A stretch of 64,000 bases of DNA from positions 124,001 to 188,000 of the forward strand of contig CALVBO010000001.1 of the NCBI GenBank assembly GCA_944325835.1, written 5' to 3'. The DNA comes from Candidatus Gastranaerophilales bacterium. Its GTDB lineage: Bacteria > Cyanobacteriota > Vampirovibrionia > Gastranaerophilales > Gastranaerophilaceae. Shown one piece after another: positions 4,111 through 61,700 of the stretch (position 1 is its first letter; each line of letters begins with the position of its first letter). The translations under genes were made by a program, and so were the position numbers. The notes beneath the pieces are model-generated. The model was not told the origin of the DNA, ran no database searches, and saw only the letters and a list, made by a program, of their open reading frames with translations.

Positions 4111-5133
4111 CTGCCTTTTAATTTTAAAATGAAGCCCCATTATCGTAAAAATTTTATATTTTCTGTCCCATGATTTTTTAATAGAAAATATAAATTCAAT
4201 TATTCGTAAATAATGATAATATTTAAGCCTCCGATAATTTTTAATTTTTGCTAAATCTTTGACCGGAAATAGTGTTTCCACATAGTCAATTAAGCTTTGC
4301 GAATCCTGATACAGCTTCCTTTTCTCTTTACTATTTTCATACTTTCGTAAATAATATAATGCCCCGCCTAAAAATCGCGAAAGTATATTTAATTTCAAAT
4401 CATCTTCAATGCTTTTATATAAGTCAAGATTACATAAACACTTTAAAGATATGAGATCATTTGCAATGCAATCAACTGAATTTGTCACCTGCTGCGCAGT
4501 ACCGCATCTGTAAACGTATAATGATTCGTTCAGACAGGAATATTCAGCACCGCCCAAGTAACACTCCCAATTAAAAATCATATCCTCAGCAGTAACGCAC
4601 TGCTCCTGAAATAAAACATTTGCATTCTTTAAAAATGAAGAGGACCAGATTTTATCCCAAATATAAACAAGAAAATCCGTATAAACAAGTCTATCCGGGT
4701 TAACGGCCATTTTATCAAATTGCCTTTTGCGGCTGTTATTAAAAATTGACTCATTGCCGCACTGCTCTGAAAAATTAAACACGCAAATATCACTTTGCAC
4801 GCTTGAAATTTTTTCATAGGCCTTCTGACATGCTTCCGGCAATAAATAATCATCACCGTCCAAAAACATAATATACTCGCCACGGGCTATTTTTAGCGCA
4901 TCATTTCTCGCAGTTGATACCCCTCTGTTTGTTGTGGTTATTATAATGAAATTGTCATATTTTTTATATTTATCAAGTATCTCTGAGGAATTATCCGTAG
5001 AGCCGTCATTAACACAAATACATTCTATCTCTCTCAAAGTTTGGTTATGTACACTGGACAAACACATGTCAAGATATAAGCCGACATTATACACCGGTAC
5101 AATTATCGAAACCTTAATTGCATTTTCATCCAT
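4108..5133 (-). CDS. Family 2 glycosyltransferase
   Basis: 341 residues, GT-A fold. The N-terminus VSIIVPVYNV is the nucleotide-sugar strand, VNDGSTDNS lies around residue 41, and the metal-binding DxD appears as FLDGDD around residue 91. It likely transfers a sugar from UDP- or GDP-sugar onto a cell-surface glycan. The acceptor cannot be told from sequence. No other glycan genes adjoin it. Confidence 0.85.
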   Translation of the reverse strand: MDENAIKVSIIVPVYNVGLYLDMCLSSVHNQTLREIECICVNDGSTDNSSEILDKYKKYDNFIIITTTNRGVSTARNDALKIARGEYIMFLDGDDYLLPEACQKAYEKISSVQSDICVFNFSEQCGNESIFNNSRKRQFDKMAVNPDRLVYTDFLVYIWDKIWSSSFLKNANVLFQEQCVTAEDMIFNWECYLGGAEYSCLNESLYVYRCGTAQQVTNSVDCIANDLISLKCLCNLDLYKSIEDDLKLNILSRFLGGALYYLRKYENSKEKRKLYQDSQSLIDYVETLFPVKDLAKIKNYRRLKYYHYLRIIEFIFSIKKSWDRKYKIFTIMGLHFKIKRQ

Positions 5134-5221: not shown

Positions 5222-5440
5222 ATGAATAGAGAATTCTTCTTTAAATTAGGCTATAAGATAAAATACGAAAGGGTAAAGAAACAGCTTTCACAATTGGAGC
5301 TGTCTTTACAAAGCGGTTTAACAACAAGAACTCTCAGCAGAATAGAAAGCGGCACGATAGACCCCAAGATTTCAACCTTAAAACGAATTGCCGATGCTCT
5401 TTGCATAGAAATAGCTGACCTATTGAAATTTGAACTTTAA
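5222..5440 (+). CDS. Small XRE-family HTH regulator
   Basis: 72 residues, essentially one Cro/C1-type HTH: LSQLELSLQSGLTTRTLSRIE, then the typical KISTLKRIADAL third-helix region. No sensor domain. Divergent from the glycosyltransferase, which it could regulate, though no operator is evident. Confidence 0.8.
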   Translation: MNREFFFKLGYKIKYERVKKQLSQLELSLQSGLTTRTLSRIESGTIDPKISTLKRIADALCIEIADLLKFEL

Positions 5441-9523: not shown

Positions 9524-10879
9524 CTAAAACATTAATCTAAAGAGTAAGAATCTCTTATTCAATTTTTCAGAGAATTTTCTCAAATTTGCAGTCGTGACTG
9601 TTGCATCCTCAATCATTGCCTGAATTTCTGTTTTATTCTCGCAATTTACGGAATTCAACGGTGCCAGAGCGGTTGAAATATCAAGCATTGCATTATTAAG
9701 ATTTTTAATTGAAGTCGTGATGCTACCTTTAAGCTTTTCATCTTTAGTCATAGTTTCTACAAACTCACTAATTTCATTCATATTTGAAACAATTGCCCTA
9801 AAGTCAGACGCCAGCTTTTGCGAGGATTCGTCATCACCGAATAAAATATCAATATTTTTGGAAAGAGAATTAAACGAATTTGCCGTTTCAATAACGGTTT
9901 TCTTGACATCCTCATCCTTCAAAAGAGTATTCATGTTTTCTGAAAGTTGATGAAAATCTTTTGCGGCCGATTCAGTAAGTGCCATAAGATTATCAAGATC
10001 CTCTTCCATAAACGAGTTCAATTTCGCCAGAACTTCACTCGCATCAGCCGTCAAAGAATTAATATTCCCGACAGACTTTTGAAGTTCTGTAATAAGTTCA
10101 TTGGAAAGCAGTTCATTAACCTTTTTATTGGTTTCTGTAAGCCCTTCTGCGGCACGATATTGCCATTCCATGAAGTCTGCTATTCTCATTGGTTCAATTA
10201 TCGTATACGGCGACTCCTGACTTGGATAAGGCAATACAACATCATCAAGTGTTGATATCAACATTGAATTAGGCTGATTTCTCTCAACCAGCAGCTTGCC
10301 TTTCATAAATTCCGGCAGAATCAGTCCCGGTAAATCGACAATATAATCAACTTTATATGCATAATTTGAAGTCACAATTTCGCGCAGATAATACGGAACC
10401 AGATCGCTTGAAACTACATTAATGTCCTTAATTTTACCGACGTCATAAACTTTATCATCCAACTTCATCTTAACAACATCATCTTTATAAAGAATATCCT
10501 TTGTTACCATTGGAAGATAAACCGTTCTGGTTTTAGGCGGAGTAATTTCAAGGAAGAGTTCACCTATAAGCCCCGACTGTTGAATTGAAAGTGCTGAAGC
10601 CTTTGGAATATCAATATCAGAATCTGTAATTACAAACTTAACTTTAACATAATTTTCATCTTCAGTAGTAACAGGTTCAATTTCCTCAACCTGCCCGACA
10701 CGCATCCCCATCATCTGAACTGCCGCACCCGGACGCATGCCGTTTACATCTTTAAATCGAACTTCTACCCTGTCAGCATTGGAAAATGTCCGGCCTTTAA
10801 CTCTTATTACTACACCAAGAAGCAATACCAGCGATATAAAAGCAAGAAGTCCTACCTTAAAAGATGATGAAAATTTCAT
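9524..10879 (-). CDS. MCE/MlaD-family lipid transport protein
   Basis: 451 residues. One N-terminal transmembrane helix (about 8-26) precedes an MCE domain (VRFKDVNGMRPGAAVQMMGM and VGQVEEIEP). A long, mostly helical C-terminal part of about 200 residues resembles needle-type MCE proteins. It probably forms a periplasmic channel with an MlaE/MlaF-type ABC transporter moving phospholipid between membranes; those partners are not in the window. Upstream of lpxK in one transcript. Confidence 0.88.
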   Translation of the reverse strand: MKFSSSFKVGLLAFISLVLLLGVVIRVKGRTFSNADRVEVRFKDVNGMRPGAAVQMMGMRVGQVEEIEPVTTEDENYVKVKFVITDSDIDIPKASALSIQQSGLIGELFLEITPPKTRTVYLPMVTKDILYKDDVVKMKLDDKVYDVGKIKDINVVSSDLVPYYLREIVTSNYAYKVDYIVDLPGLILPEFMKGKLLVERNQPNSMLISTLDDVVLPYPSQESPYTIIEPMRIADFMEWQYRAAEGLTETNKKVNELLSNELITELQKSVGNINSLTADASEVLAKLNSFMEEDLDNLMALTESAAKDFHQLSENMNTLLKDEDVKKTVIETANSFNSLSKNIDILFGDDESSQKLASDFRAIVSNMNEISEFVETMTKDEKLKGSITTSIKNLNNAMLDISTALAPLNSVNCENKTEIQAMIEDATVTTANLRKFSEKLNKRFLLFRLMF

Positions 10880-10952
10880 TAAATATCCCCTTTATAATGT
10901 TGATAGGCTTATTGTAACAGAAAAAATAAAAAAGTTAAATACTTAATAAAAC

Positions 10953-12987: not shown

Positions 12988-13062
12988 GCGGGGGTAATTC
13001 AGTGGTAGAATGCCTCCTTGCCAAGGAGGATGTCGCGAGTTCGAGCCTCGTCTCCCGCTCCA
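12988..13062 (+). tRNA. tRNA-Gly (GCC), 3' part supplied by the prophage
   Basis: 75 bases with complete cloverleaf: acceptor GCGGGGG/CTCCCGC, anticodon arm CCTCC TTGCCAA GGAGG giving GCC, T-loop GTTCGAGCC, discriminator T and encoded CCA. The bases from 13018 onward form the attachment core, so the functional 3' half was replaced by phage DNA at integration. Confidence 0.97.
13018..13059 (+). other. attL core (42 bp)
   Basis: Identical over 42 bases to 51274-51315; covers the anticodon-loop to acceptor half of tRNA-Gly. First mismatches are C versus T on the left and C versus A on the right. Confidence 0.95.
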
Positions 13063-13063
13063 T

Positions 13064-14218
13064 TTAAATGCTAGTATCCACGTACCTTTTAGGGAAGTGG
13101 ATAATTTTTTTATTTAGGCTATTTTCTTTCATGCTCATATTTTGCTCATATTTTTTTGAAAAAATATTCCCGATTTTCTCTGTCGCTCGCGCTACCATAT
13201 CACTGTTATTTCGTGCATATATATTTAAGGTTGTTTCACTTTTGGCATGACCTGCCTGATTCTGTGCAAACTTTACACTTAAACCGCTCGATAATACCAT
13301 ATCTATATATGAACCGCGCAAATCATGAAGCCGTACTCGTTTATTTATTTCGCATAACTCTAACAGTGGATACCAAAAACGCTGCCGCAAATTGTGAGGG
13401 TTTAAATAATTACCAGCTCGGTTAGGAAAAAGTATAGGGTTTTCTTTATCTGACCTCCTTATATGCTCCCGCAAAACTCCGGCCAGTTCGTCAAATATGT
13501 ATATCTTCCTATTTGAACTCTCTGTTTTCGTTTTGTGTACAAGCCGATTTTTTGTAAACTGTTTATTAATTAATAACGATTTTTCATCAAAATTAAAATC
13601 ATCTTTTGTTAACGCAAATATTTCACCTTCCCGTGCGCCGGTACCAACAAAAGTATAAAGCAACGCATAATATTCTGGATACGAGCGCAGGCATTCCTCT
13701 AACACCATTTTTATTTCTTCTATAGTTAAATGGTTTATATCTGCCTTCGGTAACTCCGCCTTTTCAACTTTATCAAATACGTTATAATCAAGAAGGCCAT
13801 GCTTGATACAATAATTAACCGCTGCTTTTGCCATCTTTAAACTATCTTGCGCAACATAAGCACTGGATTTTTCTATATCATCAAATAAACCCTGCCAGGT
13901 TATTGAATCAATTTTATCATATCGAATATCTTCGACAGCTTGAAAATATTTCTTATAATACCTTTCATAAGTCTCAATTGTATTTATAGCATACTTTTTT
14001 CTGGCTTTATCAAGATAATGTTTAAAAATCTGGCCATAAGTTATATTTTGGTTATCCGGATTTACATTCTCAAACTTGCTTAAATGTCTTTTTGCCTCTT
14101 TAATCGTGTCGTAAATCCCTGAGGTATGCTGCTTACCAAAAATATCATAGTAAGTTATTGTGTATTTTACGACTTCGCCCTTTTTAGTCTTTATCCTTTT
14201 TTTGCTTATTCCTGCCAT
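13064..14218 (-). CDS. int: Tyrosine-recombinase integrase
   Basis: 384 residues. An N-terminal arm-binding beta domain (about 1-50) precedes a SAM-like core-binding domain (about 60-150) and the catalytic domain. Catalytic residues are visible: Arg in GTGAREGE, Lys in KTKTESSNRKI, His and Arg in LHDLRGSY, His in AGHAKSETT, and Tyr in TLNIYAR. It ends two bases from the tRNA-Gly CCA. Its 3' end also contains the tRNA terminator and a putative arm site. Confidence 0.96.
   Translation of the reverse strand: MAGISKKRIKTKKGEVVKYTITYYDIFGKQHTSGIYDTIKEAKRHLSKFENVNPDNQNITYGQIFKHYLDKARKKYAINTIETYERYYKKYFQAVEDIRYDKIDSITWQGLFDDIEKSSAYVAQDSLKMAKAAVNYCIKHGLLDYNVFDKVEKAELPKADINHLTIEEIKMVLEECLRSYPEYYALLYTFVGTGAREGEIFALTKDDFNFDEKSLLINKQFTKNRLVHKTKTESSNRKIYIFDELAGVLREHIRRSDKENPILFPNRAGNYLNPHNLRQRFWYPLLELCEINKRVRLHDLRGSYIDMVLSSGLSVKFAQNQAGHAKSETTLNIYARNNSDMVARATEKIGNIFSKKYEQNMSMKENSLNKKIIHFPKRYVDTSI
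13075..13111 (+). terminator. Phage-supplied terminator for tRNA-Gly inside the int 3' end
   Basis: Stem TATCCAC (13075-13081) with GTGGATA (13097-13103), followed by ATTTTTTTATTT. It lies antisense to the last integrase codons. Confidence 0.75.
13133..13163 (+). repeat. Putative integrase arm-type site, left copy
   Basis: A 31-bp sequence with two tandem GCTCATATTT-like units. It recurs with one mismatch at 51119-51149 in the same orientation near attR, so the two copies would flank the core in attP. Binding by Int is inferred. Confidence 0.6.
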
Positions 14219-17325: not shown

Positions 17326-18564
17326 TTATGCGATTGCTGTAATTTCTAAACTTTCAGGGTCAATTCCGTTTAAGCGAACTTTTAACCCCTCTAAGATTGT
17401 TTGTGGTTGTTTACTGGAATTCGGATTATAGCAGCATTCCAGATGATAAATTCCTGGTACTGTCTGGTTTTTCATATACAAGTACGGAAGATAAGCGTAA
17501 GTCGTAAATATCGCTGACATATCTATCAGCTTATACTCTGATTTTTTATACCATTCAAAATTGCGGGTTCCTTCATGATTTTCCCAGGTATCCATAAGTT
17601 TGCCTAATGACACCATACGTTCAATACCATACTTACGTATGAATTCAGCCTTAATATCTGCATTTTGCTCTTTCTTGAAAAAATCAATATCTAAATTGCT
17701 AGCAGGCGTTTCAGCTAGATATTGAGGAACTCTAACGCCATTTAAAGCCCACACACTAAATCCATCAGCGTATTTTACAGCAGGTTTGCCATCTGCGTGT
17801 AATCGTGTTCCAATTTGATTTATTTCAACAGGCTTCTGGGAAATTATACAAACACTATCTAATGGAAAAATAGGACCGAATTTTACTGTATTTACCCACC
17901 AATCATAATTAGATTTTACGTTGTCATAGCTTATATTTAAGACTTCGGTGAAATAACTATAAAAAGCCCAAATATTGGCATCCAAACTGCCGTAAAAATA
18001 AGGGGAGATAAATGCAATTAATTCGGAATCCCACACGGAATCCCACACGGAATCCCTCACGGAATCCCTCACGGAAGCCCTCACGGAATCCCACACGGAA
18101 TCCCACACGGAAGCCCACACGGAATCCCTCACGGAAGCACTCACGGAAGCCCACACGGAATCCCACACGGAAGCCCACACGGAATCACTCACGGAATCCC
18201 ACACGGAATCCCACACGGAATCCCTCACGGAATCCCTCACGGAATCCCTCACGGAATCCCTCACGGAATCCCTCACGGAATCCCACACGGAATCCCTCAC
18301 GGAAGCCGAAATATTCTTGATTGGGAATTTATAACCTTTTTCTGCAAACGCAAACATGTTAACAATTATCCAAGCGGAAAGTGGACTTTCCGCAATAATT
18401 ACCGGGACCTTTGGTTTTTTACGTATGTTCTCATAAAAGTAATCGCTCCATTGCTGCGCATCTTCTTTTGTAAATCTTTCAGTTGATAAACCCAATTTAA
18501 TCCATTTATCGCGATATATTGCCATTTGCTCTTTTTGTTCTTTTGTTAATTTTGTAATCATCAT
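17326..18564 (-). CDS. DUF6745-like protein with a tetrapeptide-repeat insert
   Basis: 412 residues. A helical N-terminal part (KEQMAIYRDKWIKLGLSTE) leads into about 24 tandem tetrapeptides of form x(D/A)SV at about residues 85-180, where x is Arg, Trp or Ser. A conserved-looking C-terminal domain follows (NQIGTRLHADGKPAVKYADG, TRNFEWYKKSEYKLIDM). The C-terminal part resembles proteins I associate with DUF6745, of unknown function. The repeat has a strict 12-bp period and should be length-variable. Two ATGs at the start; either could be used. Confidence 0.6.
   Translation of the reverse strand: MMITKLTKEQKEQMAIYRDKWIKLGLSTERFTKEDAQQWSDYFYENIRKKPKVPVIIAESPLSAWIIVNMFAFAEKGYKFPIKNISASVRDSVWDSVRDSVRDSVRDSVRDSVRDSVWDSVWDSVSDSVWASVWDSVWASVSASVRDSVWASVWDSVWDSVRASVRDSVRDSVWDSVWDSELIAFISPYFYGSLDANIWAFYSYFTEVLNISYDNVKSNYDWWVNTVKFGPIFPLDSVCIISQKPVEINQIGTRLHADGKPAVKYADGFSVWALNGVRVPQYLAETPASNLDIDFFKKEQNADIKAEFIRKYGIERMVSLGKLMDTWENHEGTRNFEWYKKSEYKLIDMSAIFTTYAYLPYLYMKNQTVPGIYHLECCYNPNSSKQPQTILEGLKVRLNGIDPESLEITAIA
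18024..18309 (-). repeat. 12-bp coding minisatellite
   Basis: About 24 copies of a 12-base unit (GTG-TGG/AGG/AGT-GAT/GCT-TCC on the coding strand). Units differ almost only in the second and third codons, giving VWDS, VRDS, VWAS, VRAS, VSAS and VSDS. Confidence 0.9.
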
Positions 18565-19847: not shown

Positions 19848-20273
19848 TCATAAAAGTTTCTCCTGTTTAATGTTTGTAGGGTTCCATTGGGTATATTCTT
19901 TCATTTTTGAAATTGTGATTTCTATTCGGGGGTTGTGTTTATCGTGAAAAACCCTTGAGCCATCGTGCGCAGCAATAATATCGCGGTTATCATCAAGAAT
20001 TAAACCCGCCTTAACCATTGCATCATCTATCGCATTCAACAGGTTTGCAAGGTCAACCCGGCGGCGTGTTTCAACATAAAACACGCACTCCAGATTGACG
20101 GGGTAATTTACAATCCCGGCTTCTGCCCTGACACGGTTAAGATACGGCAGACATTCTCTTTCAAACTCCCTGTATTGCTGTGACGGAATTAAAATAGGCC
20201 TGCCCTTTACCGTGATTATTTGCCCTGAATTTTTCTTTGTCACAGGCTTTACCGGAATTGTAAACTTTATCAT
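19848..20273 (-). CDS. rusA: RusA-family Holliday-junction resolvase
   Basis: 141 residues, normal length. Typical start FTIPVKPVTKKNSGQI, then the acidic metal site RRVDLANLLNAIDDAMVKAG and LILDDNRDI. It cuts four-way junctions made during phage recombination and fits with RecT and the nuclease upstream. Confidence 0.9.
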   Translation of the reverse strand: MIKFTIPVKPVTKKNSGQIITVKGRPILIPSQQYREFERECLPYLNRVRAEAGIVNYPVNLECVFYVETRRRVDLANLLNAIDDAMVKAGLILDDNRDIIAAHDGSRVFHDKHNPRIEITISKMKEYTQWNPTNIKQEKLL

Positions 20274-21576: not shown

Positions 21577-22377
21577 TTAATCAATCAATGCCGACATCAA
21601 AATAGGTTTTGTGATTACCTTTGTTTCTTTGCACCAGTCGCAGCGGCCGCAGCGTTCGGGCATTATCTCACCTGATTTTAAAAGCTTGATACGTTCAACG
21701 CCGCACTTAGCACCCACCAATGCGCCGTCAAGTTCCGGCTGCGTAATTTGAATTAACTCAATAGCGGTCGTCTTGGTTTTATCTGCTACCGCTATAAAAC
21801 AAGGTAGTTGCTTGCCGGTGTTAAGTTCAACCACTTTTTGATAAATCGCTAATTGAAAATCATAGCCATAATTTTCTATAAAATTCAGATTACGGCCAAC
21901 CCCGGGAACATAAAATCTTTCGTAAATATCTTTGACTACTTTTAAATCAACGATAGCCTTATCCTTTAAGTAGCTGTCCATTTTGATTTTCCAATCAACA
22001 CCGAAAAGATTAGCGGTCATTATGGTTTGTTTTTCTCCCGAAAGATACTGCATAAATTTACGGTCTTTTTCGATTCTTGATATGATGTTTTCGGCTTGAA
22101 CATATTCAGCCTTGAGAGAACCGTCTTTTTTGAAGATATCGGGATTATTTTCTTTAAACCTTTCAAGAGTGCCCTCCACATAACTATCAACATAAGAACC
22201 TACTAACAATGCTGTTGTAGGTTCTTCTTTGTATTCTCCATTCAGTTTGGCAATCGCTTTAGCTTCGCAACCCTTACGCCCGAGGGTTCCAAAAAAGTCT
22301 TTATACTGACTTACACTTAAATACTTCCGATTAATCTCCGGCGTGTAGTAATTGCTGTTGTTCAACTTCTGCTTCAT
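21577..22377 (-). CDS. PD-(D/E)XK exonuclease, RecE-like (DUF3799)
   Basis: 266 residues. Start MKQKLNNSNYYTPEINRKYL and LSVSQYKDF match the DUF3799 group. Nuclease motifs appear as KMDSYLKDKAIVDLKVVKD. A Cys cluster, RCGRCDWCKETK, near residue 245 may bind a metal or Fe-S cluster as in related nucleases. It would resect double-stranded ends for the RecT-like annealase, with which it overlaps by 47 bases. Confidence 0.75.
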   Translation of the reverse strand: MKQKLNNSNYYTPEINRKYLSVSQYKDFFGTLGRKGCEAKAIAKLNGEYKEEPTTALLVGSYVDSYVEGTLERFKENNPDIFKKDGSLKAEYVQAENIISRIEKDRKFMQYLSGEKQTIMTANLFGVDWKIKMDSYLKDKAIVDLKVVKDIYERFYVPGVGRNLNFIENYGYDFQLAIYQKVVELNTGKQLPCFIAVADKTKTTAIELIQITQPELDGALVGAKCGVERIKLLKSGEIMPERCGRCDWCKETKVITKPILMSALID

Positions 22378-23014
22378 TTTTTACATCCTGTTTTTCTTGG
22401 CTGTCGACCTGTTCCGGTTCTGCAAATACATCTACAATTTCACTTTCTTCAATTGGTTTTATGTCTGTGGCTTCATCTTCTGTTAGCATTCCGTTCATTA
22501 TTTCAGGACAATAAAGACGCCCGAAAAAAGCAGCAGCACGGTATCTTAACATCAACTCCGGCATTGTCTTCCATTTTGAGCCGCTTTTACCAAGCCAACC
22601 TTCATTTTTCGCCATTTCCATTGTGATTAGTGGGCCTACAAGCTTATCGCCTGTAGTTTTTTCTACCGCATAAGCTCTACATTTTGTACGGTTGGCATCC
22701 ATTTCAAATTTCAAACCACCGTTAAAACGTCCGCTTGCATTGATGCAAGATATAATGAATGTACTTGCCCAGCTCGGTTTCCCCTGAACAATGTACATAT
22801 TTTGCATTACTAAAAACGGACTTAATTTTAGACGGTTACTAAGTTCTAATGCAATGATACAGTTCTCAGGTTTATTTTTATAAACCGCCGGTATCATATC
22901 GCTTTTTGCGAGTTGCTCCGCCATTTTCATAGCGTTGTTGAAATTTTCCTCACCACTGAATACTGATAAAGTCGCATCAGATTGCGGCATTGTTGTTAAT
23001 TGTGCTTCTGCCAT
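22331..23014 (-). CDS. recT: RecT-family single-strand annealing protein
   Basis: 227 residues. Core motif KPENCIIALELSNRLKLSPF, then MQNMYIVQGKPSWASTFI and INASGRFNGG match the RecT/Redbeta group. Acidic tail. It anneals complementary strands during phage recombination. Confidence 0.75.
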   Translation of the reverse strand: MAEAQLTTMPQSDATLSVFSGEENFNNAMKMAEQLAKSDMIPAVYKNKPENCIIALELSNRLKLSPFLVMQNMYIVQGKPSWASTFIISCINASGRFNGGLKFEMDANRTKCRAYAVEKTTGDKLVGPLITMEMAKNEGWLGKSGSKWKTMPELMLRYRAAAFFGRLYCPEIMNGMLTEDEATDIKPIEESEIVDVFAEPEQVDSQEKQDVKNEAEVEQQQLLHAGD

Positions 23015-24933: not shown

Positions 24934-25626
24934 ATGAATATTAGTGAACTGCAAAAAGAGTTAACAGAACGTAACATTAATATACCTGCGTACAAAATTG
25001 CCGAAATTTGGGGAATGGATGAAACAAGTTTTAGTAAAAAAAAGAAAAATGGGACAGCAATCAAATTAAAAAATATAGAACAACTTGAGCAGGCCTTGAA
25101 AATTAATTTGACTAAAAGAGATTTACCCAAAGAAGCCCCTATGACCAAAGATGAGATTTTAAAGGAACTTGAAGAAATTAAAGAACATCTAATAAATACC
25201 ACCAAACCGGTGAGTGGCACCATTAACTTAACTTACAGACCTGATGTTTCTTTATCTGCAGGTTACGGCATTGAAGTTTATAATGAAGCCGCGCAAACAT
25301 TTGCTATTGATTCAAGATTGTTAACAACAGAAAGAGGAAACAAGATAAATCCTAAATATTGTGAGATTGTGGCTGTTGCCGGTAATTCGATGTACCCTGA
25401 ATATAGAGAAGGTGACAGGGTAATTATTAATAAAGCTGATACAACTTTAACAGATGGGCAAATTTATGCCATTCGATACCGCGGGCAATGTTTTGTAAAA
25501 GAAATAAATTTATTACCTGATAAAATAAAATGTATTTCCTTGAACAAGGAATATGATCCGTTCTATATCAATGAAAACGAAGATTTCGTAGTAATTGGTA
25601 GAATAATCCCGAGAATAAGATTATGA
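24934..25626 (+). CDS. S24-family (CI/LexA-type) phage repressor
   Basis: 230 residues. The N-terminal 60 residues form a divergent HTH. The C-terminal S24 peptidase has Ser152 in GNSMYPE and Lys189 in QCFVKE as the dyad. SAG-YG at 108-112 is a likely self-cleavage site (Ala109-Gly110). It would hold the early promoter off and be inactivated by RecA after DNA damage. Divergent from the early operon. Confidence 0.92.
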   Translation: MNISELQKELTERNINIPAYKIAEIWGMDETSFSKKKKNGTAIKLKNIEQLEQALKINLTKRDLPKEAPMTKDEILKELEEIKEHLINTTKPVSGTINLTYRPDVSLSAGYGIEVYNEAAQTFAIDSRLLTTERGNKINPKYCEIVAVAGNSMYPEYREGDRVIINKADTTLTDGQIYAIRYRGQCFVKEINLLPDKIKCISLNKEYDPFYINENEDFVVIGRIIPRIRL

Positions 25627-26830: not shown

Positions 26831-27070
26831 TTAGGCTTTTAGCAACATATCATAGATTTTATCTAATTTTTCTTTAATTTCTTCAATATCGCTTTTCATT
26901 TCTGAAATAGCTATATCATGTGTTTCTTTGAGCACAAATTTCTTTTCCAGATTATGTTCAAAGATAGTAAAACGCTTTTCTAGCTGTTCTGGCGTAACAA
27001 AAATTTTATTTTGCCAGATAAAACCAAGGATAACTATTATTAGTGGTGCATATTCAAAAAAATATGTCAT
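26831..27070 (-). CDS. Small membrane-anchored coiled-coil protein
   Basis: 79 residues. An N-terminal hydrophobic helix (YAPLIIVILGFIW) is followed by a charged coil (SEMKSDIEEIKEKLDKIYDML). Overlaps the next gene by four bases. Could be a lysis accessory (holin or spanin-like), but no signature is present. The 284 bases upstream to the antitoxin hold no gene I can support. Confidence 0.45.
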   Translation of the reverse strand: MTYFFEYAPLIIVILGFIWQNKIFVTPEQLEKRFTIFEHNLEKKFVLKETHDIAISEMKSDIEEIKEKLDKIYDMLLKA

Positions 27071-31047: not shown

Positions 31048-31593
31048 TTACTCCTTTACTATTAACGGTTTTGCGGTAAAGTCACTAGATAGTTGTAAAA
31101 AGCATTCCTGTACAAATTCTGACGTTACGTTTTTTACTTCCTGCAGAGACTCCATATAATCCATACTAAATTCTTCTGTAAAATCGGGTTCTTTATATGT
31201 AATAATCGGGACTGCCTGTCCGGTCTGGATACCCATTGATATAGTAGGCAATAAATCGGATAGAAAATCCTTTATTTCCCCGGTTGCCATATTTACCTTG
31301 CGTCTAATGTAACCGAGAGATGTCAAGAAAAATTCTTTTGCAAATTGTTCTTTACGCTGCTTAATTAATTCTTCTTCTGTTGGTTTATAAATTTCTTTTA
31401 TTTCAAAGCGGCGTACGATTTGGGTTTCTGTATGTGTGATTATATCGCCATTTTCGTCCTGTTCCTCGACTTCAACTTCTGCAGGCGCGCTATCAATTTC
31501 ATCAATATAGCAATCACCGCGCTTGTTACACCATTCGGCAGCTTCCGGCGGGTATTCAATCTCAAATATCTGTCCTATAAAAAATTCTTCCAT
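31048..31593 (-). CDS. Tail-fibre accessory protein, possible assembly chaperone
   Basis: 181 residues. N-terminal beta part (FFIGQIFEIEYPPEAAEWC), an acidic linker, then a helical part. It lies directly downstream of the fibre gene beyond the invertible segment, where fibre assembly genes usually sit. No domain named with certainty. Confidence 0.5.
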   Translation of the reverse strand: MEEFFIGQIFEIEYPPEAAEWCNKRGDCYIDEIDSAPAEVEVEEQDENGDIITHTETQIVRRFEIKEIYKPTEEELIKQRKEQFAKEFFLTSLGYIRRKVNMATGEIKDFLSDLLPTISMGIQTGQAVPIITYKEPDFTEEFSMDYMESLQEVKNVTSEFVQECFLQLSSDFTAKPLIVKE

Positions 31594-31635
31594 TTAATTT
31601 TCTCCTTTTAATTTTATTATCCCCCCACTGCGAAC

Positions 31636-32110
31636 CGGCAATGGCATCATCCTACAGTGGGGGAGCATAGGCGCTGTAACAGTTAATCAAAACTTGACTA
31701 CAAGTTTTAATACAAGTTTTACCGCAGCCCCTAAAGTAATAGTTTCTATCAATGGTACATGGGCAAACGAACCAGTGTTCACCGTGGCAGCTGTAACTAC
31801 TTCAAACTTTACTGTACATCTATCAAGCTCTGGTAATGATTCAAGTGGTTGTAGTGGTTTTTACTTTGCAATCGGATATTAATATCCGATTGCTAGCCAT
31901 CGCATTACATTTCCACCGCTACTATGTTGACCAGAAAACGTACTTGTAGTTACACTAGTGACCGAGCAGTGACTTTGACCATTACTATTCGTTGTGTCAA
32001 TGATTATTGGTGCATAGTTAGTTGTAGTAAATGGTGTTGGAAGGGTCACAGTATAATTTGTCGCTGTTTGATTTGTCAAAATCCCCCACTGTAGGATGAT
32101 GCCATTGCCG
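31636..32110. mobile_element. Invertible segment exchanging tail-fibre C-termini
   Basis: Perfect 29-bp inverted repeats at 31636-31664 and 32082-32110 flank 417 bp with two convergent coding ends. Each repeat encodes GNGIILQWG in the fibre frame. Flipping would replace the present end (ILTNQTATNYTVTL onward) by the stored one (SIGAVTVNQNL onward), both finishing with AIGY-stop. No dedicated invertase gene is visible; the only site-specific recombinase in the window is Int. Confidence 0.9.
31665..31882 (+). other. Stored alternative tail-fibre C-terminus (silent)
   Basis: The open frame continues straight from the left inverted repeat, has no promoter or ribosome site, and encodes about 71 residues ending SGFYFAIGY. 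The expressed end finishes MRWLAIGY. The two stop codons overlap inside a 26-bp palindrome (31868-31893). Confidence 0.85.
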
Positions 32111-33975
32111 AGTTTTAAATACCCGTTGGCGGCTTTTTTGATACCAGTTGTTGTAATAACGGAATTGACTATATCGCTTGCAGGCGCTTGTATAAAGTTA
32201 CGTCCGGAAACGGTTTTGCCGATTAGAAGATTTGCATAACTGGTCGCGCCATTTAAGCTTTTACCACACAAAATTTCAACATATTTGTTGCCTGAAACAT
32301 TTTCAATATATCGAACACTACCGGCTACTCTATTATTCTTATCCTTTATATCTACCAGCGGGTATGCCCGATTTGTGGATGGCGCAACAGTATTGGCAAT
32401 ATCCAAGATGTCTGAATTTACTGTTAATAAACCGTCTACATTAAGGTCATTGCCTACATTAAGGTCATTGCCTACATTAAGGTCATTGCCTACATTAAGG
32501 TTGTCATTAAACGTTTTTGTATCCTCAATGGTTTCATTGCCAGTAACATGTACAACTTCATTGTTCTTTGCAAGCGAGACAGTTTGAGGGATGTTTAGTG
32601 ATTGAATAACACCATTTTCAACGGTATTGTCCGTATAGCTAAATATTATACCTGATAATTCATTGCCTGAATTAATCATTATATTTTTTACGCTGTCATA
32701 ATCCGCATCACTATAAATAGCAATAGCATTACGCGCATAGACTAATTTACCATTGAGTCTTGTATAATCAGAGTCATAAGTTGTCAGATAAATCTTTTCA
32801 GTTGTAAAATCCTGATTTTTTAACGTGCCGTCCTCATTCCTGTAATTAGGAATAAGCATACGGACGCCTTTATCTATCCACAGGCTTGAGCCAATATAGC
32901 CAAAACCGTTAAATACCTGCTGAATGCTACCGGGCGTACCGCTGGCCGTATAATTCAAAATCCCGAGCGGTAAAGTGTAATTTGCGATTTCCCACGCAGA
33001 ATTTACATAACGTTTTACAAGGTTTGTGCTTGTATCATACCACATAGTTAAATTTACTGGTGATGCCGGAGCGGTAGGGCCGCTAAAACATCTGTCAATA
33101 GGTGTTCTGTATACATTTTGAGCACCGTTTAAGCCTAACATTACCGTTGTAGTTTGGATATTGTTTAAGGTTATATCTGCCGTAACAGTGATGTAATCAA
33201 ATCTCGGTGTGGTGCCGTCAGCTTCAAACCCGTTAGGCTGTATGCCGATAGTACCGGCTTTGATAATAATATTTGTGCCGTTATCCACCAGATTAACCCG
33301 CTGCGGGATTTCAAGAACACAGTTAGTAAGCTGCGTTTTGTTGAGAAAATGCTTTTCGCCAACTGCGCTTAGGTTCGATAGGTCAACTGTTGCTCTGCCA
33401 TCAATCCCTGTAGTTATAATTTTGTTGTATTCATTCGTCCCGGCTTCACCTATTTGGGCGAGAGCTGTTGTTTGTACCGTTTCAATACTATTTATTGCGT
33501 CAGTTTTAGAAGTTGCGACATCGCTCAAAGCGGTTGTCGTAATGCGGTTGATATCCTCAACGCCTTGTATAACAGCGTTTTCTATTTCTTCAACCTTTCC
33601 GGCTGCAGCGTTATTAATACCCTCAACGCCGGCAGATCCTGCGATATTAAGACTTGCCAGCCCGTCCGAAATAATTGTACTTAACTCTTCTGAATATGTA
33701 TTATAGTTAGTATTTAATAAATCTGAAAGATTTGCGGCTGTTTCTGCGGCAGCTTGTGAGACTTCCGCAGAGGATTGCGAGTTTTTTGCCCAATATTTAG
33801 AAGAATAATCTTCATTTTGGACAAGTCCATCCATGTTTGTTGCCCATAATTTCGCAAGCGTTGAATAATAATGGGATGGATTTTCTTCGATTTGTACCGA
33901 ATTTTTAACGTTTTTTATACCAACCTGTAAACTTTGTGGTTGACTCGGTGTAACTTGAACTTGAACTTCTCCCAT
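31879..33975 (-). CDS. Tail fibre with phase-variable C-terminus
   Basis: 698 residues. The N-terminal 60 residues are a virion-attachment type start (EVQVQVTPSQPQSLQVGIKN). A helical stalk (SSAEVSQAAAETAANLSDLL) and beta-rich shaft follow, with about four GNDLNV repeats near residues 495-510. The C-terminal tip of about 66 residues lies inside the invertible segment. It binds the host surface receptor; the tip likely sets host range. Followed upstream by two further fibre-like genes. Confidence 0.88.
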   Translation of the reverse strand: MGEVQVQVTPSQPQSLQVGIKNVKNSVQIEENPSHYYSTLAKLWATNMDGLVQNEDYSSKYWAKNSQSSAEVSQAAAETAANLSDLLNTNYNTYSEELSTIISDGLASLNIAGSAGVEGINNAAAGKVEEIENAVIQGVEDINRITTTALSDVATSKTDAINSIETVQTTALAQIGEAGTNEYNKIITTGIDGRATVDLSNLSAVGEKHFLNKTQLTNCVLEIPQRVNLVDNGTNIIIKAGTIGIQPNGFEADGTTPRFDYITVTADITLNNIQTTTVMLGLNGAQNVYRTPIDRCFSGPTAPASPVNLTMWYDTSTNLVKRYVNSAWEIANYTLPLGILNYTASGTPGSIQQVFNGFGYIGSSLWIDKGVRMLIPNYRNEDGTLKNQDFTTEKIYLTTYDSDYTRLNGKLVYARNAIAIYSDADYDSVKNIMINSGNELSGIIFSYTDNTVENGVIQSLNIPQTVSLAKNNEVVHVTGNETIEDTKTFNDNLNVGNDLNVGNDLNVGNDLNVDGLLTVNSDILDIANTVAPSTNRAYPLVDIKDKNNRVAGSVRYIENVSGNKYVEILCGKSLNGATSYANLLIGKTVSGRNFIQAPASDIVNSVITTTGIKKAANGYLKLGNGIILQWGILTNQTATNYTVTLPTPFTTTNYAPIIIDTTNSNGQSHCSVTSVTTSTFSGQHSSGGNVMRWLAIGY
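32436..32500 (-). repeat. 18-bp tandem repeat in the fibre shaft
   Basis: About 3.6 copies of a unit encoding DLNVGN; copies are identical, so length variation by slippage is likely. Confidence 0.85.
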
Positions 33976-51273: not shown

Positions 51274-51315
51274 TTGCCAAGGAGGATGTCGCGAGTTCGA
51301 GCCTCGTCTCCCGCT
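51274..51315 (+). other. attR core (42 bp)
   Basis: Direct repeat of the tRNA-Gly 3' half. Followed by AATAG rather than CCA, so the displaced host copy would not encode CCA. Confidence 0.95.
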
Positions 51316-52769: not shown

Positions 52770-55700
52770 TTATTTGATAAGTGATATATTATCATTTTCT
52801 GTATCAAATGGTCTTGCAACTGAATCAATTTGCTGTTCAAGTTCTTGTACAGATTGCATTTCCATTTCTTGTTGTTTTTGGAGTTTTGCCTGAGCTATTG
52901 AATCCTCAATAAGAATATTCATATATAGAATATTGTTAGCTGTTGCCTCATCAAGGTTTACAAATTCTGCTCCGGCGCGGTGCTTAGTAGCTGATACAAC
53001 TTTAATATCTGTGTCAATTACAATATCACCGTATGTAATCTGAACTGGAACCACATCGCCAACATTCAACGTTTCGTTATGTGTTACCGCAACACCGCCT
53101 CTTGAGATATCAATTACAGATTCTACTTGATCATTTGGTGCCAGAGTCAATGGAATGCTGTTACCGCCGACATCAAAACGCATTGTTTGACGTTTATCCA
53201 TTGCTTCTATGTTATGATCCATAGTTCTTTGTTTATATGTATATTGATATCCGACTTCCGGAAGAGGACTAGGGTCATCCGGATCAGGATCCGGTGTAGG
53301 ATCCGGGTCAGGTGTTGGATCAGGATCAGGATCTGGATCTGGATCTGGATCTGGGTCTGGATCTGGATCAGGGTCTGGATCTGGATCTGGATCTGGGTCT
53401 GGATCTGGGTCTGGATCTGGATCAGGATCTGGGTCTGGATCTGGATCAGGGTCTGGATCTGGGTCTGGATCTGGGTCTGGATCTGGATCAGGATCTGGGT
53501 CTGGATCAGGGTCTGGATCTGGATCTGGGTCTGGGTTAGGATCTTCAATTTCTAACGGAGTTGCGTCAACTATACCGTCATCAGGGTCAACATTTGTTGA
53601 ACCGTCAGTGAAATCGCCATCACCTTCCGGATAATAGTAGTTTCTTTCATCCTTGTCGTGACCGATATCTGTTACATCATCAGGTCTTACTGCCTTATGA
53701 GTTAATGTAAGGTCTTCACCTTCAAATGGTTTTGTTGCATCGTTTTCGATTTTAGAGAAACCGTCTTTGTTAATCTTAGATTGTACACCGTTAGCGTATG
53801 CTCTATCTGCAACAACTGTTAAGTTGCCTCCATTTTGCAGACGACCTTCGTCAATTACAACTCTGGAATCTGCCCAGTGGTTAACACCGTCAATCATTGT
53901 ATTGTCAAGTCTTGTTCTTGTATTGATATCAAGAGCTTTGATTGTAGCATTGTGAGGTGTAATATCACCGTTAGGTCCATAGTAATCTACCGGAGTTTCA
54001 GGTACAGAACCTAATTTGTGAATTTGAAGTGCTGCACCGCGGGTTACAACATTTATATCGTTTGCTGCAGTAATTTCATCAATGATTGTATTACCTGAGA
54101 ACTCAATATTTGCAGAACCTTCTCTTGAGATTATTGTGCCAGCATTTGTATCATAAGCATCATCCAGGCCTTTCAAATTCATATCTTTGATAGACAAGAA
54201 ATCAACTTCTTTATCAGTATTTCTTTGGTTAAATGTAACAGCTTTATCAGATGTACCGATTGTATTGCTTGCGATTAAGGAAATTGCCTCACCTTCAACG
54301 TTTGCAACTGTATCATCTTTTGCTGCATTTAGAATTGATGCGCTTGTATCAGTTGTTTCACCGGCCAACAAGAGAACATCACCTTTTGCATGAACCTGAT
54401 TAATATTCAAATCAGCTTCTTTACTTGCAATATTGATAACCAAATTATCTTTATTGCCATCGGCTCTTAATGTATTTGCTGTTACCGTACCAGCAACTTC
54501 AACATTAATTGATTTTGTTAAATCTCTTGAAGTTGGTAAAATTCCAGAGTCAACATATCCGCCGATTGTACCGTTAATAGCTTTAGCGCTGAAATCACCG
54601 CCCGCTTTAACAATTGTATTTGTTGTACCTGCATTCAGAATGCTTCCGTTATATGAATATAAGTCAACATTTCTTCCTGCGGTCAGGTTATTTGAATTAT
54701 CAGTTGTTGTAGTACCGATAACAATATTATTATCTTTAGCATCTACAATGATATCATTAGCAGCTGTCACGTGACCTTTTGCTTGGAAATCTTCTGTACC
54801 GAAGCTTTGGACACGAACATCGCCTTTATCTGCGGTAACATTAGCTTCATCACTGATAATAATGCCTTTACCAATGTTTTGAATACTTACATCACCGGAA
54901 GTTACCTGTCCGTCAATTTGGATATCACCAGATCTATTATTGATATAGATAATACCTTCGTTATCAATTGTAGAAGTGTCGGCGATTGTCAAACCGGTTC
55001 CGTCATTTGTGATTTCTGCATCTGCACCGCCGATTATATCGCCCGAAACAAGTGTTGCACCTGTTCCGTGGTTTCTGATTACAAGGTTACCGGCATTGTC
55101 AATAGTACCACTCATTGTAAGATCTGTACCATTTTCACTGTTGATAATGTTAGTTTTAAGCTCATTATCAATCGTACCGCTAACTGTTAATGCACCTGTA
55201 CCATTATTTGTAACTATCAGGTTGCCTTCATTATCAACATCACCGGTTAGTGACAGGTCAGTTCCTTCATTTGTAATTGTGGTGTTGCCACCATTTATAA
55301 TATCAGCACCTACAGCCAATGCGCCGGTTCCGTTATTTGTAATTTGTAATGAGGTTGCGTTGGTGATTGTACCATTTACTGTTGCATTTCCAGCATTTTC
55401 GCTATTAACAATGTTAGTCCAATCTTTATTGTCAATTGCACCGGACATTGTTAAGTCACCTGCATTATTCGTGATTTTTAAACCACCCTGGTTAGTAATA
55501 TTGCTTGCTTCAGTGAATGTCAATCCGTCCGCACCGTTATTAGTAACCATCATATTGCCTGAATTATTAATAACACCAGCCATTGTTAAGCCTGAACCGT
55601 TATTTTCAAATTCAGAGTTGCCGCCGTTAGTAATTTCGCCGTCAACAAGCATAGCACCTGTTCCGTTATTTCTTACCAACAGAGCATCAGCATTATTGAT

Positions 55701-58700
55701 TACACCGTTAAGTGTCATATTTTTAGCAGTTTCGGAGTTAATAATATTGGTAATAGCATCGTTATCAACTGTACCATTCATTAATAATGAACCTGTACCG
55801 TTATTTGTGATAATCAAATTACCGGTATTATCAATTGTACCGCCAACAGTTAAATCAGTTCCGGCATTTGTGATTTCTGTATTGGCACCGTTAGTGATAT
55901 CTGCACCAACATTCAATGCACCTTTACCGTCATTAATTATGTGTAAAGAATTTGTATTATTTATTGTGCCATTTACTGTTGCGTTATTTCCGCTGTTCAA
56001 AATTTGTGTTTGAACTCCGGTATTGGTTAACGCGCCGGCTAAAGACATATCTCCAGCATTATTATCTAATACTAACATGCCGTTTGCAGAAATGCTGCTG
56101 TCCTCGGTCGTTGTGAAACCGCCTGTACCATTATTCGTGATTTCTAAGTTATTAGAGTCGTTAATTGTTCCCGAGATGTTTAGTGCTGAACCGTTATTTA
56201 TAATTTCAGCATCCGCACCGTTGGTTATCGCACCACTTACATCCAATGCTCCGGTTCCATTATTTTGAACCAATAAATCACCGGTATTATTCAATGTACC
56301 ACTTATGCTCAATGCTTCGCCGGCATTTGTGATTTCTGCATCGCCACCGTTGAGTACTTCACCAGTTAGTGACAAATCGCCGTTGCCTTCATTTCTTACT
56401 ACTAAGTTACCGGCATTATCTAACTTACCGCCTAAAGTCAAATCTGTTGCTGTTTCGCCGTTAATAATATTAGTTATGCCTTCATTGTCCACAGTTGAAG
56501 TCATTGTTAATGCGCCGGTTCCGTTATTCGTTACTATAAGGTTGCCTTCATTATCCAGACTTCCACCAACTGATAAATCGGTTCCTGAATTTGTAATAGT
56601 TGTATTATCACCGTTTACAATATCCGCACCAACAGATAAGAAACCTATTCCATCATTGATGATATGTAATGAATTTGCATTATTAATTGTACCATTTACG
56701 GTTGCGTTGTTACCGCTGTTCAATATCTGAGTTTGAACTCCGGTATTGGTTAACGCGCCGGCTAAAGACATATCACCGGCATTATTATCTAATACTAACA
56801 TGCCATTTGCAGATATATCGCTTGTGTCGGTTGTTGTTAAACCGCCTTCACCATTATTCGTTACTTGAAGGTTATTTCCATTGTCTATCACGCCGGAAAT
56901 ATTCAACGCACTGCCGTTATTCGTTACTTCTGCATCTTTTCCGTTCGTTACGCTGCCGGAGATATCTAACACGCCGGCGCCGTTATTTTCTACTAGCAAG
57001 TCGCCACTATTATTCAACGTGCCGCCTATAGATAAGTCCTTACCACCATTCGTTATCTCTGCGTCACCACCATTGATTACGTCACCCGTTAATGACAGGT
57101 CGCCGCTGCCGGCATTTCTTACCACTAAATTGCCCGCATTATCTAATCTGCCGCCAACCGTCAATTCTGTTCCGTTGGCACTATTAATTATGTTCGTTAT
57201 CCCTTCATTATCTACGGTTGAAGTCATTGTTAATGCGCCGATGCCGTTATTACTTACAAGCAGGTTACCTGCATTATCTATACTGCCGCTAACGCTCAAG
57301 TCAGTTGCGGTTTCACCATTCGTTATCGTGGTATCGCCACCGTTTGTTATGCCAGCACCTACACTTAATGCGCCTGTGCCGTCATTGATTATATGTAACG
57401 AATCTGCATTCGTTATCGTGCCATTTACGGTCGCATTATTTCCGCTGTTCAGAATTTGCGTTTGTGTTCCGTCGTTTGACAACAAGCCGCCAAGGTTCAT
57501 ATCACCTTTCGTATTGTTTACTATCAAAAGACCATTACTATTTCTTATTTCACTCTTTTCTGTTGTCGTTAAACCGCCCAAACCGTTATTCGTGATTTGT
57601 AAGTTATTCGCATTCGCTATTACGCCCGAAATATTCAACGCATTTCCGTTATTCGTTAGTTCGGCTTCTCCATTATTCGTTATTGTGCCGCTTACGTCTA
57701 AATCGCCACGGCCATTATTTTCTACAAGCAAGTCGCCTGTATTATTTATTGTGCCGCTTATAGACAAGTCGTTACCAGCATTCGTTATTTCACTATTTGC
57801 TCCGCTTATTACGTCACCGGTTACGGACAGGTTGCCTGTTCCGTTATTTCTTACTACTAAATCTTTCGCGGTATTTAATGTACCACCTAACGTTAAATCT
57901 GTTCCGGTTGCACCGTTAATAATGTTCGTTATTCCTTCATTATCTACTGTTCCGGACATATTAAGTGCTCCGCTGCCGTTATTACTTACAAGCAGGTTGC
58001 CTTCATTATCTATTGTGCCAGATACGCTCAAATCTGTTCCCGCATTCGTTATCTCGGTTTGACCGCCATTCGTTATGTCGGCACCTACGCTTAATGCGCC
58101 GGTTCCGTCATTTTCTATATGTAACGAATCTTTATTATTTATTGTGCCGTTTACGGTTGCATTATTTCCGCTGTTCAATATCTGAGTTTGAACTCCGGTA
58201 TTGGTTAACGCGCCGGCTAACAACATGTCTCCGGCATTATTATCTAATACTAACATGCCATTTGCAGAAATGTTGCTGTCTTCAGTCGTTGTAAAACCGC
58301 CTTCGCCATTATTTGTGATTGCTAAATTTTGTGAATCATTAATTGTTCCGGAGATATTTAATGCTGTACCGTTATTCGTAATTTCTGCATCTAAGCCGTT
58401 CGTTACGCTGCCGGATATATCCAACGCACCTGTACCGTTGTTTTGAACCAGAAGGTCGCCACTATTATCCAGTGTGCCGCTTATGCTTAATGCTTTTCCA
58501 GCATTCGTTATCTCGGTTTGACCGCCGTTAATTACGTCACCGGTTAGTGACAGGTCGCCCGTTCCGTTATTTCTTACTACCAGATTTTCGGTATTATTTA
58601 ACTTGCCACCCAACGTTAAGTCGGTTGCGGTTTCGCCATTTTGAATATCGGTTGAGCCGCCATTCGTTATATCGCCGCTTAACGTCAACGAGCCGCTTCC

Positions 58701-61700
58701 GTTATTAGTTACCTTTAACGTGTCACCGTTTTTAATTACGCCGGATAATAATGCATCCGTTCCTTCATTCGTTACGGTTATATCACCATTATTATTCGTT
58801 ATGTCGCCGTCTACGGTCATTGTTGTGCCGCTATTGCTCAATAAGATATTTCTATCATTTTCTATTGTGCTATCGACAAGCATTGTGCCGCTGCCAGCAT
58901 TCTCTATTCTTAAGTCGTTTCCGTTATCTATTGTTCCTGTTACGCTTAAGTTCGTTCCTTCATTTCTTATTTGGGCATTATTGCCATTCGTTATTCCGGC
59001 ACCTACGCTCAAGGAGCCTTTGCCTTCATTCAATATTGCCAAATCTTTTGTATTATTTATTGTGCCATTTACGGTCGCGTCTTGACCTTTATTCAAGATT
59101 CGGGTCAATATTCCAGTATTCGTTACGCTGCCGTTCATATCCAGGCTGCCGGCATTATTCGTTATATACAGCAACCCGCCATTTTCTATACGGCTTTCTT
59201 CGGTTGTTGTTAAACCTCCTTCACCATTATTCGTTACTTGAAGGTTATTTCCATTGTCTATCACGCCGGAAATATTCAACGCACTGCCGTTATTCGTTAC
59301 TTCTGCATCTTTTCCGTTCGTTACGCTGCCGGAGATATCTAACACGCCGGCGCCGTTATTTTCTACTAGCAAGTCGCCACTATTATTCAACGTGCCGCCT
59401 ATAGATAAGTCCTTACCACCATTCGTTATCTCTGCGTCACCACCATTGATTACGTCACCCGTTAATGACAGGTCGCCGCTGCCGGCATTTCTTACCACTA
59501 AATTGCCCGCATTATCTAATCTGCCGCCAACCGTCAATTCTGTTCCGTTGGCACTATTAATTATGTTCGTTATCCCTTCATTATCTACGGTTGAAGTCAT
59601 TGTTAATGCGCCGATGCCGTTATTACTTACTATTAGGTTGCCGCCGTTTTCTATTACTCCGCCAACGGAAAGATTTACGCCTTCATTAGTAATAGTAGTA
59701 TTTTTAGTATTATCAATATCGGCATTTACAACCAGGTCAGCATTTTTATTATAAATTACAGTATTACCGCCGTTAGTTATATCAGCAGTAACGTTCATGC
59801 CTTGAGTACCCGTATTTTTAAGTTCTAAATACTGATCATTATTAATCGTTCCACCAATATTAGCAGAAGTTCCGGAATTTGCAATCATAGCTTCTGTACC
59901 TTTATTGGTAACAGTACCAGCCATATTTAAAATTCCGGCAGTATTTTTAATATATAAATTACCGTCATTAGTAATTGAGCTTCCGGCTTCAAAATTCATA
60001 CCATTTTTTGCATTGTTGGTAATAAATAAATTATTGCCGTTTGTAATTGAACCGGTTTGGGTATATTTATCACCATTATTGGTAATAGTTGCATCATTAC
60101 CGTTTTTAACAGTACCGGAAATCAATAACGCACCGGTTCCGTCATTTTTGATAAATAAATTTTTAGCGTTATCAATTACGCCTGAGATAGTAGCTGTAGT
60201 ACCGCCAGCGTTATTGTTTATTTGTAAACGGGAACCGTTATTATCAATGTTACCGCCAACATTCAATGCTCCGGCATTATTTTCAATATCAAACATACCG
60301 CCGTTGGTTATATCAGCAGTATTTGCGATTGTTAAACCATTTGAACCGTTAGTATGGGTAACATTCAAATAACCGTCATTATCAATTGTACCTGAAACCT
60401 TCAGTCCGCTGCCGCTATTTGAAATATAAGTATCTCCGCCGTTATCAATTGTGCCACCGACATTCAAACTGCCAGAGCCGGTATTATGAATTGATAATCT
60501 TTCAGAGTTATTAATCGTACCGGATAAGTTTGCAGAGGTACCGCTGTTTTTAATTTCAGTAACAGAACCGGTGTTTGTAATATTACCGGCAATATTCAAA
60601 ATACCTTTCTGGTTATCAACTTTAATAAATCCGTTTGCATTGTCAATATCCGCGTTAGAAGTGATTTCCATACCGCCATTGCCAGTATTTCTGAGAGTTA
60701 AGTCGTTTCCGTTATCAATTCTGCCGCTAACTTTCATATTGGAGCCATTGTTGGTAAGAATAGTGTTGTTGCCGTTATAAATATTGCCGGAAACCAATAA
60801 AGCTCCTGTTCCAGAATTTGTAATAGTCAAATCAGTAGCGTTATCAATGTCACCAGAAACTGTTAATGCATCTCCGGTATTAACAAGTTGTGTAAATTTA
60901 CCGTCGTTGATGATGTTACCGGAAACTGTTAAATCACCGGCATTATTAGTCGCAGAAATAGTACCAACATTGTTGTTAATTTCACCATTAAGTGACATTC
61001 CTTGTGAACCTTCATTAGTAAGCTTAATATAACCGGTTCCGTCAGAAACGTTTTTCATGACACCGTCAAGTGACATTCCTTCATTTGGTCCGTATGAAGT
61101 AATAGAAATAACACCATTGTCATTTCTCAAAGAATTACCGGATGCACCAAGCCCGTCGATGTTAACAAGTTGTGAAAAGAGATCTTCGCCCATTGATAAG
61201 GAAGTAATTTTACCGTCATGGTCAACACCGGCAATAATACCGCCGCTTTCCAAAAGATTTACGCCCGCTGCATTAATATCAACGGTATCCCTAGAAATGA
61301 CTTTACCGGCAATGGTTACAATGCCGGTTCCTTGTGAATCTGTAAGAGTTCTTAAATCGCTATATAACGTCGGTGTCGATTGGATACTGCCTTTAAATTT
61401 TTCATAGTCCTCAGTTGTCGGAGTCATAACTTGTAACGAGCCGACATTCAATACGCCGCTGGCACCAACGACCATCCCCTCAGGCGAGATAAATACCAGA
61501 CCGCCATTAGAGAATGAACCGTCAGCTTTCAATGTGTTAACGATACCGTTAATATCAATTCTGTTGTTAACCAGGTTAACGAATTTAGCTATATCAGCAC
61601 CGTCATAGTTCATTATAAAATTAGCAATATCGCCTGCATCCAGCTTGAATTGATCATATTTTCTAAAACCTACATCCTTGTTTATACCGGTAGGGTCAAT

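Follow-up and report, generated by a model that had tools for sequence, protein, structure and literature searches.

A candidate two-state tail-fibre tip switch with short coding repeats in a Gastranaerophilales prophage

We describe a 475-bp segment (31636-32110, arms included) of a Candidatus Gastranaerophilales prophage that probably serves as a two-state tail-fibre tip switch, with homology-driven inversion of the RecT type slightly favoured over inversion by a recombinase acting in trans. The segment, which lies in the 64,000-nt stretch of DNA analysed here (the window), consists of two alternative C-terminal tip domains placed tail to tail between inverted repeats. In our model, inversion would join the silent tip in frame to 631 constant residues of the fibre and leave the other tip parked without a start, such that phage progeny could display either of two glycan-binding feet. 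The exchange may proceed through the 29-bp identity of the repeats, by annealing with the phage RecT and exonuclease or by host RecA, during lytic replication. Both the flipping and its route are inferred, a single orientation being known with one genome per species. The principle of invertible tips is known; the window segment differs in the absence of a dedicated flipping enzyme next to the tips.

The prophage (13018-51315) is inserted at a tRNA-Gly gene of its host, a metagenome-assembled genome, and is bounded by 42-bp att repeats, with attL (13018-13059, plus strand) at the 3´ end of the tRNA gene and attR (51274-51315, plus strand) at the right end. Its genes include terminase, portal-like and tail genes, and one otherwise ordinary prophage protein (17326-18564) carries a tract of SVRDSVWDSV-type repeats. 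Just beyond the prophage, an open frame of 3025 aa (52770-61847) is accompanied by numerous long frames on the opposite strand and appears to encode a very large host protein.

The tail-fibre gene (31879-33975, minus strand, 698 aa; phrog_1396 tail fiber) reads ...NGIILQWGILTNQ...LAIGY*, and its last 78 residues form the expressed tip, a Gp53-like_C domain (31879-32109, minus strand; PF21882, 1.3e-11; model pLDDT 88.5). The silent alternative, 80 residues matching Gp53-like_C and H_lectin (31637-31882, plus strand; PF21882, 6.7e-10; PF09458, 2.7e-6; pLDDT 92), sits between the fibre stop and the next gene, a fibre-associated gene on the minus strand (31048-31593). It reads NGIILQWGSIGAV...FAIGY* and finishes at 31882 with a TAA stop (31880-31882), and upstream of the repeat it has no in-frame ATG, GTG or TTG. 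This tip is nonetheless a full, stop-free domain with a PF21882 score nearly equal to that of the expressed tip (45.3 and 39.8 bits for the two tips; gathering cut-off 24.9), and such intactness in a startless domain is unexpected for a copy long out of use. The tips are about 37-38% identical to each other, and when 29 domains sampled from the host family are compared with the silent tip, the expressed one is its closest relative. An 18-bp tandem repeat encoding three to four NVGNDL units is found in the fibre gene ahead of the tip (32436-32501).

The two tips meet tail to tail, with their stops overlapping at TTAA. The sequence-only reading had placed both AIGY-stop ends in a shared 26-bp palindrome (31868-31893); the palindrome is real, but it exists because two identical 15-nt ends (GCAATCGGATATTAA) overlap at TTAA and is no separate element. 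Flipping 31636-32110 in silico converts the 698-aa fibre into a complete fibre of 703 aa with no stop inside. The same reading was right that the swap is in frame, while its count of about 66 residues replaced by about 71 needs a small correction: downstream of QWG, the flip would exchange about 67 residues for about 72. AlphaFold models of the tips have pyocin-foot or H-lectin folds; in Foldseek searches they match R-type pyocin fibre feet, the AP22 phage protein gp53, the receptor-binding domain of the Pam1 tailspike and the Helix agglutinins (probability 0.97-1.00, TM to query about 0.6-0.8, E 1e-3 to 0.3). Given the resemblance of the models to pyocin feet, gp53 and Helix agglutinins, it is plausible that both tips bind glycans.

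Database searches returned few relatives. In IMG/VR, neither the fibre nor a second tail protein has a close relative, nor do the fibre or tip proteins of the two analogous phages described below (G002 and G019), and for the silent tip the collection yielded distant homologues only (31-52% identity). Neither tip was matched among INPHARED phages. The nearest fibre homologues in the searched collections, at 58% and 47-53%, have the shaft in common and different ends.

The repeats that bound the segment are perfect, as had been noticed from the sequence alone: the left arm (31636-31664, plus strand) and the right arm (32082-32110, minus strand), 29 nt each, are 100% complementary across a spacer of 417 nt. 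This perfect repeat is far above chance; no other exact inverted repeat of the window at gaps of 40-2000 is as long, the runner-up having 17 bp, and the longest inverted repeat per simulated window was 13-16 bp (n = 15, order-1 Markov, whole window). The 17-bp repeat itself (25169-25185 and 26870-26886), the second longest of the window, spans an interval that includes a SocA/Panacea antitoxin-like gene. Translation bears out that each arm encodes GNGIILQWG in frame with its tip, as the opening codons of the silent tip on the left and as identical codons within the expressed fibre gene on the right. GNGIILQWG is the conserved entry motif of the Gp53-like receptor-binding domain, and no motif of that domain is more strongly conserved than the one under the repeat. 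Even granting conservation of the protein motif, we estimate the chance that all nine codons are identical in both arms by coincidence at roughly 1 in 10^4, calculated from codon degeneracy with equal codon use assumed. An identity so improbable indicates that the two arms have a recent nucleotide history in common, and since the arms agree even at every synonymous site, whereas identity between the tips has fallen to 38%, homogenisation of the arm probably came later than the divergence of the tips. Just outside the left arm, the inner end of the repeat recurs in part as CCCCCACTG (9 bp; 31622-31630, minus strand), which is possibly what is left of a third tip junction that existed earlier.

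The arm has few marks of a recombination site. Its internal dyad is no stronger than in shuffles (p 0.88), and similarity to the 42-bp att repeat or its core was not found (p 0.36). Further copies are absent from the host genome and from 287 relatives (288 genomes, up to 3 mismatches), and an exact scan of IMG/VR gave no match. From these features of its sequence, nothing about the window arm would seem to point to a site-specific enzyme.

We consider inversion through the 29-bp identity slightly more likely than inversion by a site-specific recombinase, and put the homology route at a little under an even chance. Counted in its support are a repeat with no dyad, att likeness or other copy, and the presence in the prophage of a RecT-type single-strand annealing protein (22331-23014, minus strand; PF03837, 5e-9; phrog_561, 2e-74), a phage exonuclease that is its presumed partner (21577-22377, minus strand; PF12684, 2.8e-70; phrog_1227, 5e-74) and a RusA-type Holliday junction nuclease (19848-20273, minus strand; PF05866); the Erf/Rad52 protein and exonuclease VIII of the G019 phage are counted as well. 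Unrelated repeats in the three phages fit homology, but the sites of the G002 phage, one of which has a strong dyad, look like those of a site-specific recombinase. The pairs Red, RecET and Erf/exo invert DNA between inverted repeats in lambda, where the repeats were 800 bp, and pairing is cited as needing at least 23-27 bp with Red-beta and 31-34 bp with RecA (PMC3945230). The 29-bp repeat exceeds the Red-beta minimum, a threshold that belongs to Red-beta and not to the RecT of the prophage; since it is only slightly above that threshold and below that of RecA, inversion by homology could be an infrequent event. Genes for annealing proteins are also probably widespread among such phages, and finding them here is therefore weak evidence. 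In the sequence-only reading, the flip was necessarily the work of Int, of a host recombinase or of a phage enzyme supplied in trans. That a site-specific recombinase must act does not follow, because the arm has no dyad, att likeness or other copy, a RecT/exonuclease pair is present, and pairs of this kind do invert DNA (PMC3945230).

A two-tip switch could also be inverted in trans by the integrase, by a host tyrosine recombinase of about 190 aa, the size of FimB or RecV, or by a serine recombinase encoded on contig C10, and we regard this as a real possibility, though not the one we would choose. The tyrosine integrase (13064-14218, minus strand) is the only site-specific recombinase of the prophage and lies 17 kb from the tips. 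Its action on att-like repeats was considered and set aside, the 29-bp arm not being similar to the 42-bp att repeat. No serine invertase is found in the prophage, as the earlier reading also noted, and the only Resolvase-family gene of the genome, that on C10, is closest to Tn552 and gamma-delta resolvases and not to Gin/Hin, which argues against this enzyme. The host does encode ten tyrosine recombinases, one of which (the integrase) is within the prophage, and three of about 190 aa match FimB/FimE invertase models below cut-off; similar short recombinases are present in the G002 and G019 hosts. Precedents exist as well: an inversion between 8-bp repeats in bifidophages, with no recombinase nearby, was ascribed to an enzyme in trans (PMC6109161), and RecV of C. 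difficile is reported to invert several loci. Against a recombinase in trans speak the properties of the arm given above, the lack of a site common to the three analogous phages, and the lack of a serine recombinase in the whole G019 host genome. The three short host enzymes (L041, L042 and L043, on contigs C31, C14 and C4) are catalytic-only tyrosine recombinases; two are encoded directly 5´ of glycosyltransferase genes, the third has cell-surface-type genes in its vicinity, and they are candidates for chromosomal phase variation.

The arrangement might instead be static: a second tip would have been acquired in reverse, by capture or by duplication, and the repeat would be the footprint of that single event or of gene conversion in a segment that no longer flips. 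This reading, which we consider unlikely, would account for the single known orientation, with no sister strain in the other orientation among the sequences examined, for the expressed tip being the closest sampled relative of the silent one, as after inverted duplication, and for the coincidence of the repeat with the most conserved motif of the domain. It is harder to reconcile with a silent tip that is full, stop-free and scores nearly like its expressed counterpart, with an arm whose synonymous sites point to probable later homogenisation, and with the recurrence of the arrangement in unrelated phages. That strain variants were chimerically joined during assembly is very improbable. The draft genome comprises 44 contigs and the related records are metagenome-assembled, but a join of variants would not yield a complete reversed second domain with overlapping stops, the locus lies within a 251-kb contig that contains a complete prophage with matching att repeats, and the same kind of layout occurs in two independent assemblies.

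Classical invertible tips are those of enterobacterial phages with serine invertases. The Mu G, P1 C and e14 P segments have a Gin-type serine invertase encoded alongside, or for e14 also in other prophages, that acts on dyad-type sites, and the Min shufflon of p15B combines several tips and multiple sites with a serine invertase. Tips are exchanged by inversion in Min as proposed for the window segment, which has two tips and one inversion. Mu G (Gin), P1 C (Cin) and e14 P (Pin) share with the window segment opposite alternative C-terminal fibre ends that can be inverted, repeats inside the coding region, and a constant N-terminus outside. The logic of an invertible tip is well supported by the anatomy, in the intact silent tip, the in-frame flip and the two analogous loci, and the likeness to Mu and P1 drawn from the sequence alone is apt in the sense of "works like". 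In contrast to all three, a serine invertase is missing from the window prophage, the site lacks a dyad, and the segment consists of the two tips only. The e14 P segment has 16-bp repeats and PinQ (PMC12529663). A 26-bp-class site with an internal imperfect dyad, a feature of Gin and Cin, is not what the 29-bp arm presents, which agrees with the earlier remark, judged here by dyad symmetry, that the sites are not hix-like; with no invertase and no dyad site, the window cassette is not of the Gin/Cin family.

Comparable systems occur in bifidobacterial prophages. The Rin system, like the window segment, belongs to gut prophages, has variable receptor-binding C-termini that inversion swaps, and has repeats in the coding region; its tyrosine invertase is encoded next to several tips, and its sites are 11 bp long (PMC6109161). 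A dedicated armless tyrosine invertase beside the tips and at least three tips and sites, both Rin features, are absent at the window segment, where there are two tips, two full repeats and a third copy that is merely a 9-bp partial; lacking an adjacent tyrosine invertase and having only two tips, the cassette is not Rin-type. The closest precedent is a second bifidophage locus (Bb423phi2 versus 689b-1), in which a segment of about 500 bp with 8-bp repeats is inverted between genomes, likewise at the 3´ end of a gene and with no recombinase nearby (PMC6109161). There, inversion was seen in genes without an assigned function, whereas the window segment has a 29-bp repeat, its genes are identified as fibre tips, and inversion is the proposed explanation.

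Two further prophages of the host family carry analogous cassettes. A PF21882 search of 288 family genomes, with loci fetched, gave about 66 fibre ends, and tip-flanking repeats were present at three of these Gp53-like loci (the window, G002:C24 and G019:C14). The family of the 31048-31593 gene is present in 47 of the 288 genomes, and none of 34 further fibre-side loci with it has tip-flanking repeats. The G002 and G019 prophages are unrelated to that of the window, their repeats differ from its repeat, and an in-silico flip gives a full in-frame fibre at both.

At the G002 locus (L077, 9250-10950), the end of a 240-aa fibre converges on a reverse tip with overlapping stops, and the flip gives 229 aa. 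Its dyad-rich sites of 14-22 bp comprise ATAATATCTATTAT twice and a longer third copy (9622-9635, 10273-10286 and 10918-10950 (ATAATATCTATTATAGATATTAT)) with a strong dyad; a Phage_tail_APC assembly gene is located between sites 2 and 3. With the strong dyad at one of them, these sites look like site-specific recombination sites, and for this phage they would favour a site-specific enzyme in trans. Elsewhere in the family, the site type has scattered 2-mismatch matches only, one each in six other genomes. A dif-like (XerCD) nature of the sites found no support, pattern matches being about as frequent as those of a reversed control.

At the G019 locus (L080, 10375-11600), the fibre tip lies between 92-bp perfect inverted repeats together with a reverse tip that differs from it in kind and a fibre-associated gene, a 39% homologue of the window gene at 31048-31593. 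The flip changes the fibre from 1086 to 1081 aa and puts the start of the downstream gene on the last base of the fibre stop, an overlap that would be expected of a tip-plus-partner unit; the layout of the unit resembles both Mu S-U/S´-U´ and e14 stf-tfa. The phage encodes an Erf/Rad52-type annealing protein and exonuclease VIII.

Two other loci were rejected as tip cassettes. In an IMG/VR sequence (L241), the 13-bp repeat flanking a tip is at chance level and a silent tip is absent. At G147:C8 (L217), the repeats lie outside the fibre; these inverted 32-bp dyad repeats (4961-4992 and 5367-5398), upstream of a type IV pilin-like gene, are possibly a promoter inverton or regulator sites.

Invertible fibre tips let temperate phages hedge their host range, and a literature search returned no work on inversion in phages of the Gastranaerophilales. 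Here, three different cassettes occur in one rarely cultured gut lineage, at least one of them without a recognisable invertase or recombination site, which raises the question of whether the general annealing recombination of a phage can drive a phase switch. It is tempting, though at present speculative, to suppose that Gastranaerophilales phages have repeatedly built invertase-free tip switches from short coding repeats and their own annealing recombination (RecT or Erf with an exonuclease). If so, their phase variation would rest on inversion programmed through short homology instead of site-specific recombination, and if annealing recombination does drive such switches, searches based on invertases would miss them.
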